Positions 413 through 35,733 of a stretch of 35,733 nt of DNA are shown here, in pieces. Position 1 is the first letter of the stretch. Each line of letters opens with the position of its first letter. Origin of the DNA: Chitinophagaceae bacterium (lineage in GTDB: Bacteria; Bacteroidota; Bacteroidia; Chitinophagales; UBA10324); the NCBI GenBank assembly GCA_947474435.1, contig CANJII010000032.1, positions 1 through 35,733 on the forward strand, given 5' to 3'. The position numbers and the translations under genes were made by a program. The notes beneath the pieces are model-generated. The model was not told the origin of the DNA, ran no database searches, and worked only from the letters and a program-made list of their open reading frames with translations.

Positions 413-662
413 CCGCACCGTTCAGTCAGTCAGCCACACGGTTGAACAATTCAACCGCATGGATGAATGTTCATCCACATGGTTGGTTCAATCATCCGCA
501 TGGTTCGGTCAGCTAACCGCACGGTTGGAAGTTTCAACCGCATGGATGGGCTATCATCCACACGGACGGATGAATGAACCGCACGGTTCACCCGCTCAAC
601 CACATGGCTATCGCCTGCAACCGCACGGTTCAGATATGAAACCGCGCATTTTATTGAAAAAA
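413..662. repeat. Helically phased array of twelve CCRCAYGG repeats
   Basis: Twelve copies of a degenerate unit start at 413, 434, 455, 475, 496, 517, 538, 558, 579, 600, 621 and 642. The steps are 21 bp except two of 20 (mean 20.8), which is two turns of B-DNA. The core is CCRCAYGG, usually followed by TT or AT and preceded by AA or AT. Many cores form the dyad AACC-GCAC-GGTT. Several linkers also form dyads such as GGTTGAA/TTCAACC (440-456) and GGATGAA/TTCATCC (461-476). The first (413) and last (642) units are degenerate. The 20 bp steps break any continuous reading frame, so short open frames crossing the array are unlikely to be genes. It ends about 50 bp before the gene at 707. Confidence 0.85.
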
Positions 663-706
663 TCAACAAATAATCATTTTACAACCCTAAAAACCCCATA
701 AACAAA

Positions 707-1300
707 ATGGCAAAAAAAGATTATGTCCCCGGACAGATTGCACAAAAAAGCCCTTGGGCTACCACACTGAAGGCAAGAATTGTAACAGATGGACCTACAA
801 TCGGACTAAGTCCGAGTGACATTACAGAAGTACAAGGTGCTTGCGATAATGTAGTGTCAGGAGTGAATGATATTGATGCAGCAAACACAGCAAAGGAAGC
901 AGCAATGGGCACGGCAAACCATAAAATTCATGACGCTGAAACAATTATTCGTAAACATATTAAGCGCGGAAAAACTCACAGTGCTTATACAAACGACATC
1001 GGACAGCATCTTGGTGTGGTGGGTGACGAAAACAGTATTGACCCTGTAACAAGTTCTCCTGAATTAAAAGGCAGAAAAGACCCCGCAGGATGGCGGCTTG
1101 ATTTTAACTTGAAAGATTTTTTTGAAGGAGTAAATATTTATCGTCAAATGGAAGGTGAAGCAGGATTTACTAAAAAAGCATTCGACAACTCAAATCCTTA
1201 TCTTGATACTGACACTGTAAAACCAGGCACTCGATATTTTGCCGTGTATGTGCTTAACGATAAAGAAGTTGGTGTGAAGAGTAATGAAGTGGTTATATAA
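707..1300 (+). CDS. Two-domain protein of unknown function, helical N-terminus plus fibronectin-III-like C-terminus
   Basis: A 197-residue protein with no signal peptide or membrane segment. Residues about 1-110 look helical and end in a basic stretch (IIRKHIKRGKTHS) followed by NDIGQHLGV. The last 80 residues look like a beta-sandwich: a hydrophobic-alternating segment, then GTRYFAVYV and a final strand with EVGVKSNEVVI, as in Fn3-like domains. This resembles a family common in Bacteroidota that pairs a small helical bundle with an Fn3-like domain; I know of no assigned function. It stands alone, preceded by the phased repeat array and followed by a strong hairpin terminator, so it is probably monocistronic. 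The start has an A-rich leader, normal for this phylum. Confidence 0.85.
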   Translation: MAKKDYVPGQIAQKSPWATTLKARIVTDGPTIGLSPSDITEVQGACDNVVSGVNDIDAANTAKEAAMGTANHKIHDAETIIRKHIKRGKTHSAYTNDIGQHLGVVGDENSIDPVTSSPELKGRKDPAGWRLDFNLKDFFEGVNIYRQMEGEAGFTKKAFDNSNPYLDTDTVKPGTRYFAVYVLNDKEVGVKSNEVVI

Positions 1301-22867: not shown

Positions 22868-25648
22868 ATGGATAAATTTTCATATATCAGCAATGCTCAT
22901 CCCAATGTGATAGAATCACTTTACAATGAATTCAAAAAAAATCCGGATTCAATTGAATTGGAATGGAAGAAATTTTTTGAAGGATTTGATTTTGCTGTTT
23001 CAGCCAATGCAGTTAACGGTGGTTCCACAATTGAAAAGGCAGGCGCAGAAATAAAATCAATTGCGGAACCTGAAACTGTTAGAGCAGCAACTGATGTCGC
23101 AAAGGAGTTGAAAGTTTATCATCTCATAAAAGCATATCGTGCAAAGGGGCATCTCGAAGCCAAAACAAATCCAATTCGTAAGCGGAAAAACCGATTCGCA
23201 AACCTGGATTTGAAATTTTTTGGACTCACTGAAAATGATTTGAATGAAAATTTTTCAATTGGAAATATTCTCGGTCTTGGAAAAACTTCGCTGAAAAATA
23301 TTATTGACCAACTGAAAAAAATTTATTGTCGCAGCATCGGTGCTGAATTTATTTATCTGAATGATGATGAACAGTATGAATGGATGCTTGGCAAAATGGA
23401 AAAAGATTTCGCACGGCTTTCGTTTCCCATTGAAAAGAAAAAACACATTCTGCAAAAACTGAATGATGCAGTGGTGTTCGAAAAATTTCTGAGCACCAAG
23501 TATGTCGGACAAAAAAGATTTTCGCTGGAAGGTGGCGAAACAACTATTCCGGCTCTCGATGCAATTATAAATTCAGCGGCAAAAAGCGGGGTAGAAGAAG
23601 TAGTGATGGGCATGGCTCACAGAGGGCGATTAAATATTCTCGCCAACACACTCGGAAAAACTTACGAGCAGATTTTTAATGAGTTCGAAGGTAATGCAGT
23701 TGCCGATACCACAATGGGCGATGGCGATGTGAAGTATCATCTCGGTTACGCATCGCAGGTAAAAACTTTTGATGGAAAAGAAATGATGCTGAAGCTTTCA
23801 CCGAATCCATCGCACCTCGAAGCGGTGAATCCGGTTGTGGAAGGTTACACCCGAGCGAAAGCAGATTTGTTGTACGATGGAAATTTAAAGCGCATTCTTC
23901 CCATTCTGATTCATGGTGATTCTGCAGTTGCAGGCCAAGGTGTTGTTTACGAAGTGTTACAGATGTCACAGTTAGAGGGATATTTAACAGGAGGCACCAT
24001 TCATTTCATCATCAACAATCAAATTGGATTCACAACTGATTTTGATGATGCGCGCTCTTCTGATTATTGCACATCATTGGCTGCAATGGTGGAAGCACCG
24101 GTATTACATGTGAACGGCGATGATCCGGAAGCAGTGGTGTTCGCAGTTGAATTGGCAACCGAATGGCGACAAAAATTTCAGCGCGACATTTTTGTTGACA
24201 TGGTTTGTTATCGTCGTCATGGTCACAACGAAGGCGATGATCCGAAATTTACACAGCCGGGTTTGTACAAACTCATTGGCGAACATGTAAATCCGCGTGA
24301 AATTTACAGTCAGCAATTAATCAGTCGCGGAGATATTGATTCGGAGTTGGCGAAGGAAATGGATAAAGATTTCTGGAAACAATTGCAGGACCGGTTGGAT
24401 TTTGTGAAGCAGCATCCGCTTCCATATAATTATCAGTTGCCTGAACTGGAATGGAAAAAATTAAGAAGAGCAAATGCTCAAGAAGATTTTGATACATCAC
24501 CTGAAACTGCTGTCAGCAAAGAGTTAGCCGACAGAGTGATAAAAGGGCTGATGAATTATCCGGAGAATTTTAATCCACTTAACAAAATTGAAACGATGCT
24601 GAGTCAGCGTCGCAAAAATTATTTTGATGACGGGCGAATTGATTGGGGAATGGCGGAGTTGCTTGCTTATGGAACACTTTTGCTCGAAGGTCACGATGTG
24701 CGCATGAGCGGACAGGATGTGAAGCGCGGAACTTTCAGCCATCGTCATGCAGTAATTTATGATGAAGACAACAACAACGAATACAATCGTCTCGACCATT
24801 TAGAAAAAGAGCAGAAAGGAAAATTTTTGATTTATAATTCATTGCTTTCTGAATTTGCGGTACTTGGATTTGAATATGGTTACTCGCTTGCTTCACCAAA
24901 TTCACTCACCATATGGGAAGCACAGTTCGGTGATTTTGCCAATGGAGCGCAAACAATTATTGATCAGTTTATCACTGCGGGTGAAAGCAAGTGGCAGCGC
25001 ATGAGTGGTGTCACACTTTTGTTGCCGCATGGCTACGAAGGGCAAGGACCTGAACACAGCAGCGCACGACTCGAACGATTTTTACAGGCAAGCGCTGAAT
25101 ACAATATCACCGTTGCGAATGTGACTTCACCTGCAAATTATTTTCACTTGCTGAGAAGACAATTGTATCGCCCGTTCAGAAAACCATTGGTGGTGATGAG
25201 TCCGAAATCATTGCTGCGCCATTCACGATGTATCAGCAATGTGAATGAAATTGTTGCCGGAGGATTTCAGGAATTACTGGATGATGCAAGTGTAACAGAT
25301 GAATCGAAGATTCGGAAAGTGTTGGTGTGCAGCGGGAAAATTTATTATGATTTATTGGAAAGAAAAATCGCGAATAAGAAGGAGGATGTTGCAATCGTTC
25401 GCCTCGAACAATTATATCCGTTACCAATAAAACAATTAGATGCACTGACAAAAAAATATCGCGCCGCAGTTTTTGTATGGGTGCAAGAAGAACCCGCCAA
25501 CATGGGCGCATGGAGTTTCATTCAACTCAACTATTCAAAAATCAAGTGGGGAATGATTTCACGAAAAGCGAGTGCCTCACCTGCCACCGGATTTCAGAAA
25601 GTTCACAATCAGGAACAGGAGGAAATAGTTGGAAAAGCGATGGAATAA
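22868..25648 (+). CDS. sucA: 2-oxoglutarate dehydrogenase E1 component
   Basis: A 926-residue thiamine-diphosphate enzyme of full family length. The N-terminal E2-binding segment starts SYISNAHPNVIESLYNEFKKNPDSIE. The core has GMAHRGRLNILANTLGK, HGDSAVAGQGVVYEVLQMSQL, TIHFIINNQIGFTT and YRRHGHNEGDDPKFTQP, all characteristic of SucA. Near the C-terminus are EAQFGDFANGAQ and LLLPHGYEGQGPEHSSARLERF. It decarboxylates 2-oxoglutarate in the TCA cycle and passes succinyl to the E2 subunit. The usual E2 gene (sucB) is not next to it; an M13 peptidase follows after 72 bp. It indicates an aerobic TCA cycle. Confidence 0.97.
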   Translation: MDKFSYISNAHPNVIESLYNEFKKNPDSIELEWKKFFEGFDFAVSANAVNGGSTIEKAGAEIKSIAEPETVRAATDVAKELKVYHLIKAYRAKGHLEAKTNPIRKRKNRFANLDLKFFGLTENDLNENFSIGNILGLGKTSLKNIIDQLKKIYCRSIGAEFIYLNDDEQYEWMLGKMEKDFARLSFPIEKKKHILQKLNDAVVFEKFLSTKYVGQKRFSLEGGETTIPALDAIINSAAKSGVEEVVMGMAHRGRLNILANTLGKTYEQIFNEFEGNAVADTTMGDGDVKYHLGYASQVKTFDGKEMMLKLSPNPSHLEAVNPVVEGYTRAKADLLYDGNLKRILPILIHGDSAVAGQGVVYEVLQMSQLEGYLTGGTIHFIINNQIGFTTDFDDARSSDYCTSLAAMVEAPVLHVNGDDPEAVVFAVELATEWRQKFQRDIFVDMVCYRRHGHNEGDDPKFTQPGLYKLIGEHVNPREIYSQQLISRGDIDSELAKEMDKDFWKQLQDRLDFVKQHPLPYNYQLPELEWKKLRRANAQEDFDTSPETAVSKELADRVIKGLMNYPENFNPLNKIETMLSQRRKNYFDDGRIDWGMAELLAYGTLLLEGHDVRMSGQDVKRGTFSHRHAVIYDEDNNNEYNRLDHLEKEQKGKFLIYNSLLSEFAVLGFEYGYSLASPNSLTIWEAQFGDFANGAQTIIDQFITAGESKWQRMSGVTLLLPHGYEGQGPEHSSARLERFLQASAEYNITVANVTSPANYFHLLRRQLYRPFRKPLVVMSPKSLLRHSRCISNVNEIVAGGFQELLDDASVTDESKIRKVLVCSGKIYYDLLERKIANKKEDVAIVRLEQLYPLPIKQLDALTKKYRAAVFVWVQEEPANMGAWSFIQLNYSKIKWGMISRKASASPATGFQKVHNQEQEEIVGKAME

Positions 25649-32977: not shown

Positions 32978-35194
32978 ATGAAGAAGATAATTTTAATAGT
33001 TGCTGTTTCGCTTTTTAGTAATTTATGTTTTGCTCAGGCCCCTGAATGGGAATGGGCGAAAGGGTTTGGCGGCATAAACGAAGAATATTCTTCATCCATT
33101 ACTATAGATGATTCTAATAATATTTACACGATTGGTTCATTCAATGGAACAGTTGATTTTGATCCAGGGTTGGGAATTTTCAATTTAACTTCTATTGGAA
33201 GTTGGGATGCATACATTTCCAAATTTGATAGTTCTTGTAATTTAATTTGGGTAAAATCTATAGGGGGAATAGCTGATGACTGTGTTGCCCGTTCAATAAA
33301 AAATGATAGTGATGGGAACATTTATGTTATAGGAAGCTATGAAGGATCTATTGATTTTGATTCAGATTCTACAAGTAATTTTATATTAAATTCTTTAGGT
33401 GGATCTTGGGATATTTTTATTTTAAAATTGGACAGTGATGGTAATTTTGCTTGGGTGAAAACAATGGGGGGGCAAAATAATGATGGCGGCAATTCAATTT
33501 CACTTGATGCTTTTGGTAATGTATTGACAACAGGTAATTTTTATGGTCAAGGAGATTTTGACCCAGATTCACTGGTAATTTATAATGTATCAACTACTAA
33601 TGGTATAGGTATGGGTGTTTTTATTTCAAAATTAGACACCTCTGGTAATTTTGTTTGGGCAAAAGCAATTGGAGGAGGATATTCTAATGGAAGATCAATA
33701 GCAGTGGGTACTATTGGCAATATTTATACAACAGGAAGTTTTCAGGGCGGTGCAGACTTTGATCCCGGATCAGGGACATATTATTTAAATTCGGGAATAA
33801 GTCAATCTGTTTTTATTTCTAATTTGGATAGTTTGGGAAATTTTGTGTGGGCAAAATCTTTTGGATCCGATTCATATGGAAATTCAATAGCTGTTGATGA
33901 TTCAGAAAATGTTTATACAACTGGAAATTTTTCCGGGACTGTTGATTTTGACCCTGGAACAGATGTGTTTAATTTATCTTCTTCTGCAAATGGCCTTATT
34001 TTTATTTCGAAATTAAACAACAATGGAAGTTTTGTTTGGGCCAAAGCAATAGGCGGTAGCACAGTTGAACAGGGACAAAATATAATGATTGATGCAGCTA
34101 AAAATATTTATATATCAGGAGTATTTTCAGATACTGTAGATTTTAATCCTGATGGAGGAGTTTTCAATTTAATTGCGACACCTTTTTCGGGTTATATTTC
34201 GAAATTAAATAAATTCGGAAATTTTGTTTGGGCAAAAACTGTTGGAAAACCCGATTGGTGGGGAGAGGTGGGCGGCTCAATAGATTTCGATAGTGAAGAA
34301 AATCTTTTTGTCACAGGTAATTTTATAGGGGAAAATTGCACTTTTGATTCTACTCTTTTGATAAATACAGATAGCACGGGTCAATTTGCTGATATATTTA
34401 TTTCAAAACTTTCATCATGTCCTACTTCAAAAAATATTACTGCATATACATGCAATAGTTATGCTTCACCAAGTGGTAATTATACATGGAGCACTTCAGG
34501 AGTTTATCAAGATTATATTCAGGGCACAAATGGATGTGATACAATTATCGTTATTAATCTTGTCGTCAATACATCAATTGCAACAATATACCCCACTGCC
34601 TGCCATAATTATATTTCTCCGAGTGGAACATATAACTGGACAACTTCAGGAACATATTACGACACAATACCAAACATTGCAGGCTGCGATAGTTTTATCA
34701 CAATACAACTTACCGTAAATTTTAATGATACTTCAATGGTGCAAAACGGTACTACATTAACTGTATCGCCGGATGGACCAACTTTCTGTCAATGGTTAGA
34801 TTGCAATAATGGATTTTCTCCAATCATTGGAGAAAATAATTATACTTTCTATGCAACTGTCAATGGAAGTTATGCAGTTGCAATGTCTATATTCGGTTGT
34901 CCGGATACTTCAGCATGTTATTCAATAACCGGAGCTGGTATAAATGAAATCACCACTTCAAGCAACTTTCAACTATCCCCGAACCCAACTGCTGATATTG
35001 TAACTGTTCAGCTCCATTCACCTTGCAGTAATTGCACAATAGAAATTTCAAATGTGCTTGGAGAGATTTTATTTACTGACGAACTCAATCAGAAATCAAA
35101 AATCTGCAGTCTGCAATCGTTCCCATCCGGCATTTATTTTATCAAAGTTAAAAGCGATAAATGGAGCGAGGTGAAAAGGGTGGTGAAGGAGTAA
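32978..35194 (+). CDS. T9SS-exported beta-propeller (SBBP-like) protein
   Basis: A 738-residue protein from ATG 32978; the open frame reaches back to a GTG at 32951, but the ATG directly precedes the signal peptide (KKIILIVAVSLFSNLCFAQ). Seven repeats follow with the pattern GNIYTTGSFxGxxDFDPG and FISKLDxxGNFVWAKxxGG, typical of SBBP beta-propeller repeats, about one blade each (to about residue 470). Two Cys-containing segments with SPSGNYTWSTSG and SPSGTYNWTTSG come next, then a T9SS sorting domain (FQLSPNPTADIVTVQL ... FPSGIYFIKVKSDKW). It is probably anchored or released at the surface, with an unknown binding role. Its stop codon is the first base triplet of the 259 bp tandem repeat. Confidence 0.9.
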   Translation: MKKIILIVAVSLFSNLCFAQAPEWEWAKGFGGINEEYSSSITIDDSNNIYTIGSFNGTVDFDPGLGIFNLTSIGSWDAYISKFDSSCNLIWVKSIGGIADDCVARSIKNDSDGNIYVIGSYEGSIDFDSDSTSNFILNSLGGSWDIFILKLDSDGNFAWVKTMGGQNNDGGNSISLDAFGNVLTTGNFYGQGDFDPDSLVIYNVSTTNGIGMGVFISKLDTSGNFVWAKAIGGGYSNGRSIAVGTIGNIYTTGSFQGGADFDPGSGTYYLNSGISQSVFISNLDSLGNFVWAKSFGSDSYGNSIAVDDSENVYTTGNFSGTVDFDPGTDVFNLSSSANGLIFISKLNNNGSFVWAKAIGGSTVEQGQNIMIDAAKNIYISGVFSDTVDFNPDGGVFNLIATPFSGYISKLNKFGNFVWAKTVGKPDWWGEVGGSIDFDSEENLFVTGNFIGENCTFDSTLLINTDSTGQFADIFISKLSSCPTSKNITAYTCNSYASPSGNYTWSTSGVYQDYIQGTNGCDTIIVINLVVNTSIATIYPTACHNYISPSGTYNWTTSGTYYDTIPNIAGCDSFITIQLTVNFNDTSMVQNGTTLTVSPDGPTFCQWLDCNNGFSPIIGENNYTFYATVNGSYAVAMSIFGCPDTSACYSITGAGINEITTSSNFQLSPNPTADIVTVQLHSPCSNCTIEISNVLGEILFTDELNQKSKICSLQSFPSGIYFIKVKSDKWSEVKRVVKE

Positions 35195-35709
35195 AGCCTT
35201 GCAGACTCACCCGCGCTCAACTAACAGTCAGCGTTTACTATTTCCACCCTCTCTGTTTTCGGAGTTATAAAATCATTCAGAGTTATTCAGGAAAACAAAG
35301 AGGGAGTTTGAAAGACAGTTGAGAAAATAAACTCTGAATTATATTTTTCTCCCTCTCATTTTTCCATCGATAACTTTTTGTTCTGCTTTAAGTTTGAAAA
35401 AAGAGAGGGTGTGTTTAGATGAGGCAAATGAAATAGTTGGCGTGGGTGAGTAAAACCTTGAAGACTCACGCGCGCTCAACTAACAGTCAGCGTTTACTAT
35501 TTCCACCCTCTCTGTTTTCGGAGTTATAAAATCATTCGGAGTTTGATAAGAAAACAAAGAGGGAGTTTGTAAAAACAAGTGAGAAAACAACTCTGAATTA
35601 TATTTTTCTCTCGCTCATTTTTCCATCGTTAACTTTTTGTTCTGCTTTAAGTTTGAAAAAAGAGAGGGTGTGTTTAGATGAGGCAAATGAAATAGTTGGC
35701 GTGGGTGAG
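35192..35709. repeat. Two tandem copies of a 259 bp non-coding repeat
   Basis: Copies at 35192-35450 and 35451-35709 are almost identical and equal in length. Each has CCCTCTCTGTTTTC facing GAAAACAAAGAGGG (35247-35260 and 35291-35304 in copy 1, one mismatch), and CCCTCTCATTTTT facing AAAAAAGAGAGGG (35351-35363 and 35397-35409, one mismatch). ATTCAGAGTT (35275-35284) in the first loop also pairs with AACTCTGAAT (35330-35339). No reading frame of note exists in 35195-35733. A third copy may begin or degrade at 35710, but the window ends 24 bp later. Confidence 0.9.
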
Positions 35710-35733
35710 TTAAAGCAATTAAGTTTAGAAGCA

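Follow-up and report, generated by a model that had tools for sequence, protein, structure and literature searches.

Organization of the array locus

The window, by which we mean the whole 35.7-kb stretch analysed here, carries near its left end a tandem array that is followed by a protein-coding gene on the forward strand. The features at this locus are as follows.

186 to 269, no strand: (CACT)21 microsatellite 5' of the array, found by TRF
About 361 to 652, no strand: the 21-bp array as fitted by a looser chain fit, 14 units with two 20-bp steps, weaker at both ends
413 to 649, no strand: core of the array by motif scan, ten exact CCRCAYGG copies (434 to 628) and degenerate copies at 413 and 642
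653 to 706, plus strand: AT-rich leader from the array to the start codon, read from the sequence
707 to 1300, plus strand: array-family gene of 197 aa, an ORF whose product has a predicted helical hairpin and FN3-fold C-terminus

The ten exact cores start at 434, 455, 475, 496, 517, 538, 558, 579, 600 and 621, with steps of 21, 20, 21, 21, 21, 20, 21, 21 and 21 bp. The mean of 20.8 bp bears out the helical phasing that an earlier note had described for this array. That note had counted twelve CCRCAYGG cores; ten are exact, while the one at 413 (CCGCACCG) carries one mismatch and the one at 642 is degenerate (CCGCGC). Elsewhere in the 35.7 kb the exact motif occurs once per strand, at 25025 (+) and 28073 (-), where base composition predicts 0.63 per strand. 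The chain fit scores 219 for the window array versus at most 51 in four shuffles. A DNA search with positions 300 to 706 revealed no second array in the window's own genome (best non-self match E 0.015). As far as seen, the CCRCAYGG motif is private to this locus, and the part shared with other arrays is the geometry.

The window array is dyad-symmetric (p 0.01, the floor of the test) about two sets of axes lying 10.5 bp apart. The two competing dyad patterns proposed earlier thus exist as axis sets, but they are not independent, because a 21-bp periodicity combined with one reflection axis forces a second. Likewise, every core and every linker had been taken as a dyad; dyads are indeed present, though some cores and linkers are poor ones. 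The T-A to A-T change that had been called compensatory is seen in the first two linkers, yet array-wide the pairing is no better than with swapped halves, both for linkers (41 of 54 partner-half pairs versus 38.2 expected; permutation p 0.13) and for cores (43 of 60 versus 42.5; p 0.47). At the far end of the window, two 259-bp tandem copies with 92% matches occupy 35189-35714, beside the end of a 747-aa ORF.

The gene at 707 and its protein family

The product of the gene at 707 was modelled by AlphaFold2 from 30 sequences with a pLDDT of 94. The model comprises a short helix (residues 11-28), a long helix (36-89) and a C-terminal domain (about 111-197) that is predicted to adopt the FN3 beta-sandwich fold. 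A first model matched 3mpc_A in Foldseek with an E value of 2.8e-4, and a second gave VIA-align Z scores of about 10 against FN3 domains, most matches having an rmsd of 2-3 over 78-87 aligned residues at about 111-197. The structure search list was filled by FN3 domains, and the N-terminal helices were thus barely probed.

Searches of 30 family members against Pfam, NCBIfam and PADLOC returned only scattered, weak and inconsistent matches, each in one or two members. The window protein had no match in PHROGs, and its best hit in a PDB profile search was a keratin at E 0.076. No relatives were found in plasmid and phage records with the window protein as query, or in viral contigs with alignment A2 as query, searches that distant members could escape. 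The family is not notably basic, with a median pI of 6.2 (8.0 for the N-terminal 95 residues).

The five named relatives come from one Chitinophagales metagenome assembly (two loci), one Chitinophagaceae metagenome assembly and two uncultured bacteria. Family members are present in 25 of 396 genomes of an order sample, 26 of 395 of a class sample and 7 of 395 of a phylum sample, each of which contains the window's genome and G047. Some genomes hold several copies; at most eight candidates were scored per genome in most genomes. Besides the family itself, no protein cluster occurs in more than 4 of 20 neighbourhood pieces. In one genome (G136), the C-terminal parts of the gene copies on contigs C26, C32 and C38 are identical, two of these contigs ending inside the gene, and gene conversion among paralogues may be responsible. 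At another locus (L027), two like inverted repeats with 24-nt arms lie near the gene, at 422-482 and 1064-1124.

Arrays precede most family genes

Among the 97 homologues with 420 nt on both sides, an array is found upstream in 67 and downstream in 2 (Fisher p 2e-25). The array is of general occurrence, not a single-locus case. The earlier note had proposed checking whether the array always precedes homologues of the 707 protein; the outcome is positive but not without exception, as 30 of the 97 have none upstream. The two members with a downstream array (L056 and L171) are without an upstream one. Seven of the 67 upstream arrays have their best window inside a mechanical ORF of at least 150 aa, so the upstream non-coding count may be as low as 60. 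One of the seven, at L065, belongs to the repetitive coding sequence of the gene before it, and it is included in the 67 of 97 and in the 44 of 62 given below. Two others of the seven are L041 and L085, where the ORF is in the frame of the family gene itself.

The 21-bp period stands out in each homologue set. In the first set, 44 of 62 upstream regions gave a periodicity statistic above 6, while a 435.7-kb control (the window plus 400 kb of other pieces) gave such values at three places besides the window array. For a second set, collected by searching across the class and the phylum, the strongest lag was 21 or 42 with z >4 in 29 of 43 regions. Averaged over 105 upstream regions, leaving out L065, the autocorrelation z was 6.7, 6.6, 5.3, 5.2 and 4.5 at lags 21, 42, 63, 84 and 105, about 0.3 at lags 20 and 22, and 0.76 at the next best lag.

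The arrays at homologues carry sequences other than that of the window. Their median length is 11.5 units of 21 bp. The median distance from array end to ATG is 66 nt, and for 33 of 50 arrays it falls between 30 and 90 nt. Four array-less paralogues of one genome (G316; L054, L058, L060 and L064) have a GAACGGCCGTTC-like palindrome and a CCGGTTAYTGCGCA-like element at the array's place, as judged by eye and by pairwise matches.

Strict spacing and alternately inverted half-sites

Array fitting was applied to 63 upstream regions, of which 52 passed a score of 80, and 50 were kept after removal by hand of L065 and of a 22-bp array (L069); two further loci on the removal list, L047 and L051, had scores under 80. 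Some of the 50 arrays are weak (L077, L082 and L093). Among their 525 steps, 506 are exactly 21 bp, 9 are 22, 5 are 20, 4 are 42 and 1 is 41. Neighbouring units are on average 57% identical, with a range of 26-96%. Indels therefore seem to be selected against far more than substitutions. The earlier note had staked its reading on spacing being conserved in related arrays, and it is. The window array with its 20-bp steps and two arrays with alternating 21- and 22-bp steps (L055 and L092) remain close to two helical turns per unit while interrupting any reading frame.

Dyad symmetry exceeded that of column-permuted controls in 33 of the 50 arrays (p<=0.05), and for 20 of these the p value was the lowest that the test allows. 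Cross-validated complementarity by position was 0.37-0.62 versus 0.26. Held-out family arrays (28; z 5.7) and dispersed arrays (29; z 4.0) showed the symmetry as well. One axis together with a 21-bp period implies a second axis 10.5 bp off, so that each helical turn contains one half-site, inverted relative to the next.

Codon signature, curvature and, by cross-validation, dyad symmetry were tested on the 43 arrays in which all steps are multiples of 21. Predicted curvature, computed with a set of wedge values, was 0.606 versus 0.610 in column-permuted units (2 of 43 arrays at p<0.05), and A/T phasing at 10.5 bp rose above permuted units in 3 of 43. Phased curved DNA was rejected on these grounds.

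Array sequences turn over

Paralogous loci show what changes and what stays. In one pair (L094/L096, genome G136), the proteins are 92% identical, both being cut at contig ends, and a 192-bp flank is shared at 88%, yet the arrays between flank and gene are unrelated. A second pair (L073/L091, G234), with proteins 30% identical, has a common microsatellite and 65-bp flank and different arrays. In a third (L182/L180, G983; proteins 97% identical), flank and leader are common and the middle is unrelated and array-less. Against complete turnover, L161 and L164 (79% protein identity) both retain a poly-C flank and match at 70% across 88 bp within the array region, and partial similarity is seen in a few further pairs.

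The similarity between family arrays is 0.41 within a genome versus 0.38 between genomes, and over arrays generally 0.38-0.41 versus 0.37-0.38, a slight excess. Since same-genome similarity is barely above that between genomes, no single sequence-specific protein can read all arrays. The exception is G047, in which three arrays, one of them at a family gene, are 75-81% alike.

Dispersed arrays co-occur with the family

Away from family genes, we found 29 intergenic 21-bp arrays in 60 pieces (1.197 Mb) from 19 family-bearing genomes, versus a single weak one (L260, in G013, of the window's taxonomic family) in 0.683 Mb from 29 family-lacking genomes. Counted by genome, 13 of 19 family-bearing versus 1 of 29 lacking genomes have a dispersed array (Fisher p 1.7e-6, uncorrected for phylogeny, with hand-chosen rather than random pieces of unequal sampled length). 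Lacking means no family match at E 0.001, L137 (G374) being counted in this set, and an HMM search found no family ORF in the control pieces.

The dispersed arrays lie in 12 tandem, 11 divergent and 4 convergent gaps and at 2 piece edges, near what gap length predicts and without preference for gene starts. Nine of the 29 come from G661 alone, within 40 kb; in two pieces of this genome (L247 and L248) many intergenic gaps hold arrays whose units differ by eye. No dispersed array was found in the window's genus (100 kb of G003 and G005, and 54 kb of G000 loci) or in the pieces examined from G158, G375, G493 and G1103. Random pieces of family-bearing genomes also contain 14-bp periodic intergenic arrays (6 in 1.2 Mb) and heptanucleotide microsatellites.

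A proposed DNA-level lattice and its rivals

The best reading of these data, to which we give a probability of about 0.45, is a DNA-level lattice: a row of alternately inverted half-sites on one helical face, forming a candidate protein-binding row. In this best-fitting reading the spacing is under strong selection and the sequence turns over. Because the spacing is strict, the letters are free, the dyads are real and net covariation is absent, the double helix appears to be the functional form. The half-sites would be roughly 10 bp long and alternate in orientation, one per helical turn, all facing the same side of the helix, with a two-fold axis relating each to both its neighbours. Such a row is what a cooperatively bound protein lattice with two interfaces would need. 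A protein would bind the array; at FN3-family genes the array may set expression from the upstream side, where at some loci a nearby microsatellite suggests a variable promoter region, and the dispersed arrays may serve a chromosomal role. Candidates for the binder or builder are the FN3-family product and co-inherited factors, purely on the strength of co-occurrence with the arrays. Against this reading stand the family members without an upstream array (30 of 97), array sequences too unlike one another for a single sequence-specific reader, a family that is not notably basic, and the lack of dispersed arrays in the pieces from the window's genus; no DNA-binding protein was identified.

A wider proposal would make these arrays a new class of chromosomal element that is inherited as geometry, with helically phased half-sites that alternate in orientation and whose letters vary freely and are exchanged as a block, dispersed in Bacteroidota and served by a dedicated FN3-fold family that sits beside its own copy. 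We put it forward tentatively, as possible and on balance doubtful.

The main rival to the DNA lattice is a REP/BIME-like writing process with a 21-bp ruler. The arrays would then be by-products without host function, left behind by an amplifying enzyme, which could be a Y1 or RAYT-like transposase or else a different nuclease or polymerase working to a 21-bp ruler, and the FN3-family gene would be cargo or a neighbour. Alternating inverted units, intergenic dispersal and the tie between gene and array do resemble REP/BIME elements with RAYT, as far as the part of PMC2817692 drawn on here describes them. In addition, a comparison of presence alone over 14 chosen genomes gave Y1_Tnp matches in 7 of 7 with the family versus 2 of 7 without, and G047 has its three similar arrays. 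One of these (L207:9780-10260), related to the arrays at L209 and L048, carries MITE-like flanks, with ACACGCGAGGGC and its complement forming an inverted repeat around the array (by eye). However, Y1_Tnp (Pfam) matched none of 30 family members at E 0.1, and indels would be expected to have smeared the 21-bp register if selection were absent. Moreover, REPs within one genome have a common sequence, and the 21-bp arrays mostly do not. We regard a by-product as unlikely, though it is the rival that survives best.

The arrays could alternatively act as RNA, being transcribed as part of a 5' UTR, folding into a row of hairpins and controlling expression of the gene. Their position shortly before the ATG is consistent with this, as are runs of at least five T between array and ATG in 37 of 50 arrays (20% in shuffles). 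RNA folding is also predicted to be stronger than after column permutation (median z -2, with 21 of 43 arrays below -2), which is what the dyads alone would give. Compensatory change, however, is absent on balance, both in the window alone and in 45 of the 50 arrays pooled (L059, L077, L082, L041 and L093 left out): +97 pairs on the chosen axis are offset by -88 on the other. An apparent signal in a first pass (z 4.6 on the best axis, -4.1 on the other) is read as axis selection, not pairing. Nor would a hairpin row explain a unit of exactly 21 nt. The share of dispersed arrays in convergent gaps is close to that predicted from gap length; some, by eye, stand between terminator-like hairpins, and at L089 a promoter-like sequence (by eye) separates array and gene. 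The hairpin reading offered in the earlier note is thus unsupported, and we consider a 5'-UTR element improbable.

An equally improbable account is a contingency locus, in which microsatellite and minisatellite would make the promoter of a multi-copy family hypermutable, the array being a mutational substrate with a geometry produced by slippage. It draws on the several gene copies of some genomes, on array regions that differ between a conserved flank and the gene, and on an enrichment of microsatellites upstream of the family: nine with units of 2-8 nt plus three poly-C/G tracts in 115 regions (63.5 kb), versus 8 in 374 kb of neighbourhood sequence and 0 in the 400 kb taken from other pieces. 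Such a tract is present, however, in just 11 of the 115 upstream regions, and slippage predicts near-identical units of varied lengths, in contrast to the 57% identity, single length and dyads observed.

Finally, a coding heptad repeat (21 nt being seven codons) can be practically discarded: at least one of six frames is open in 36 of 50 arrays (70 frames versus about 56 expected, a slight excess), and at L041 and L085 the family gene's own mechanical ORF continues through the array, but all six frames are closed in 14 of 50 arrays, period-3 variability reaches p<0.05 in only 2 of 43, and 20- and 22-bp steps occur. The non-coding nature first proposed is supported, with no sign of a longer gene varying in a frame-preserving way.

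Comparison with known systems

In the openly licensed literature we found neither the gene family nor 21-bp arrays of locus-specific sequence described. REP/BIME elements with RAYT are among the nearest parallels. In the portion of PMC2817692 on which we rely, they share with the present arrays intergenic palindromic units of alternating orientation, a tied gene family, and a gene presence that tracks the dispersed copies. They differ, on the same partial account (PMC2817692), in that the 21-bp arrays change their unit sequence from array to array and have a period of 21 bp, and in that the array-tied gene encodes a predicted helical-hairpin and FN3 protein instead of a Y1 (RAYT) transposase. 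Membership in this class was rejected on two counts, namely the same-genome similarity given above, with G047 as exception, and the lack of a Y1_Tnp match in the 30 members.

BrickBuilt is presented, in the section of PMC4596501 used here, as a minisatellite MITE of Porphyromonas gingivalis with a 23-nt unit, one sequence family and terminal inverted repeats. Like the 21-bp arrays it belongs to Bacteroidota and consists of intergenic, dyad-prone direct repeats of similar length; unlike it, the arrays are mostly without a common sequence, and a flanking inverted repeat was seen, by eye, at one array (L207). The RptR operator, in the excerpt of PMC12255303 considered, consists of three 9-bp repeats with one conserved motif. 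There too a helical-protein gene is preceded by short repeated palindromes in its promoter, whereas the family arrays have a median of 11.5 units of 21 bp and no common motif.

Other candidates were set aside on inspection. A CRISPR-like array is disfavoured, as no division into repeat and spacer is visible by eye in arrays aligned in register. A structured RNA element was rejected because no Rfam family reached its gathering score in the window and net covariation is about zero in 45 arrays. Plasmid iterons and parC-type centromeres are likewise helically spaced repeats just upstream of a gene; the present arrays differ in lying on ordinary genome contigs, several per genome and each private, with no recognisable Rep or Par gene adjacent. 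An iteron origin was rejected, as none of 30 members matched a Rep initiator (Pfam, NCBIfam) and the window protein had no match in plasmid records.

Overall, about a hundred arrays of one phylum (71 at family genes and 29 dispersed) have in common a 21-bp helical register and dyads and, for the most part, no sequence. If they are functional, something would have to read the geometry or self-similarity of DNA and not a motif; if they are mutational, some enzyme would write DNA with a 21-bp ruler. Neither such a reader nor such a writer was found described in the openly licensed literature. To our knowledge, the known bacterial repeats (REPs, iterons, CRISPRs and MITEs) are recognised by sequence, and motif-based annotation would miss the 21-bp arrays, which by comparison look like an element whose identity lies in geometry rather than in sequence.
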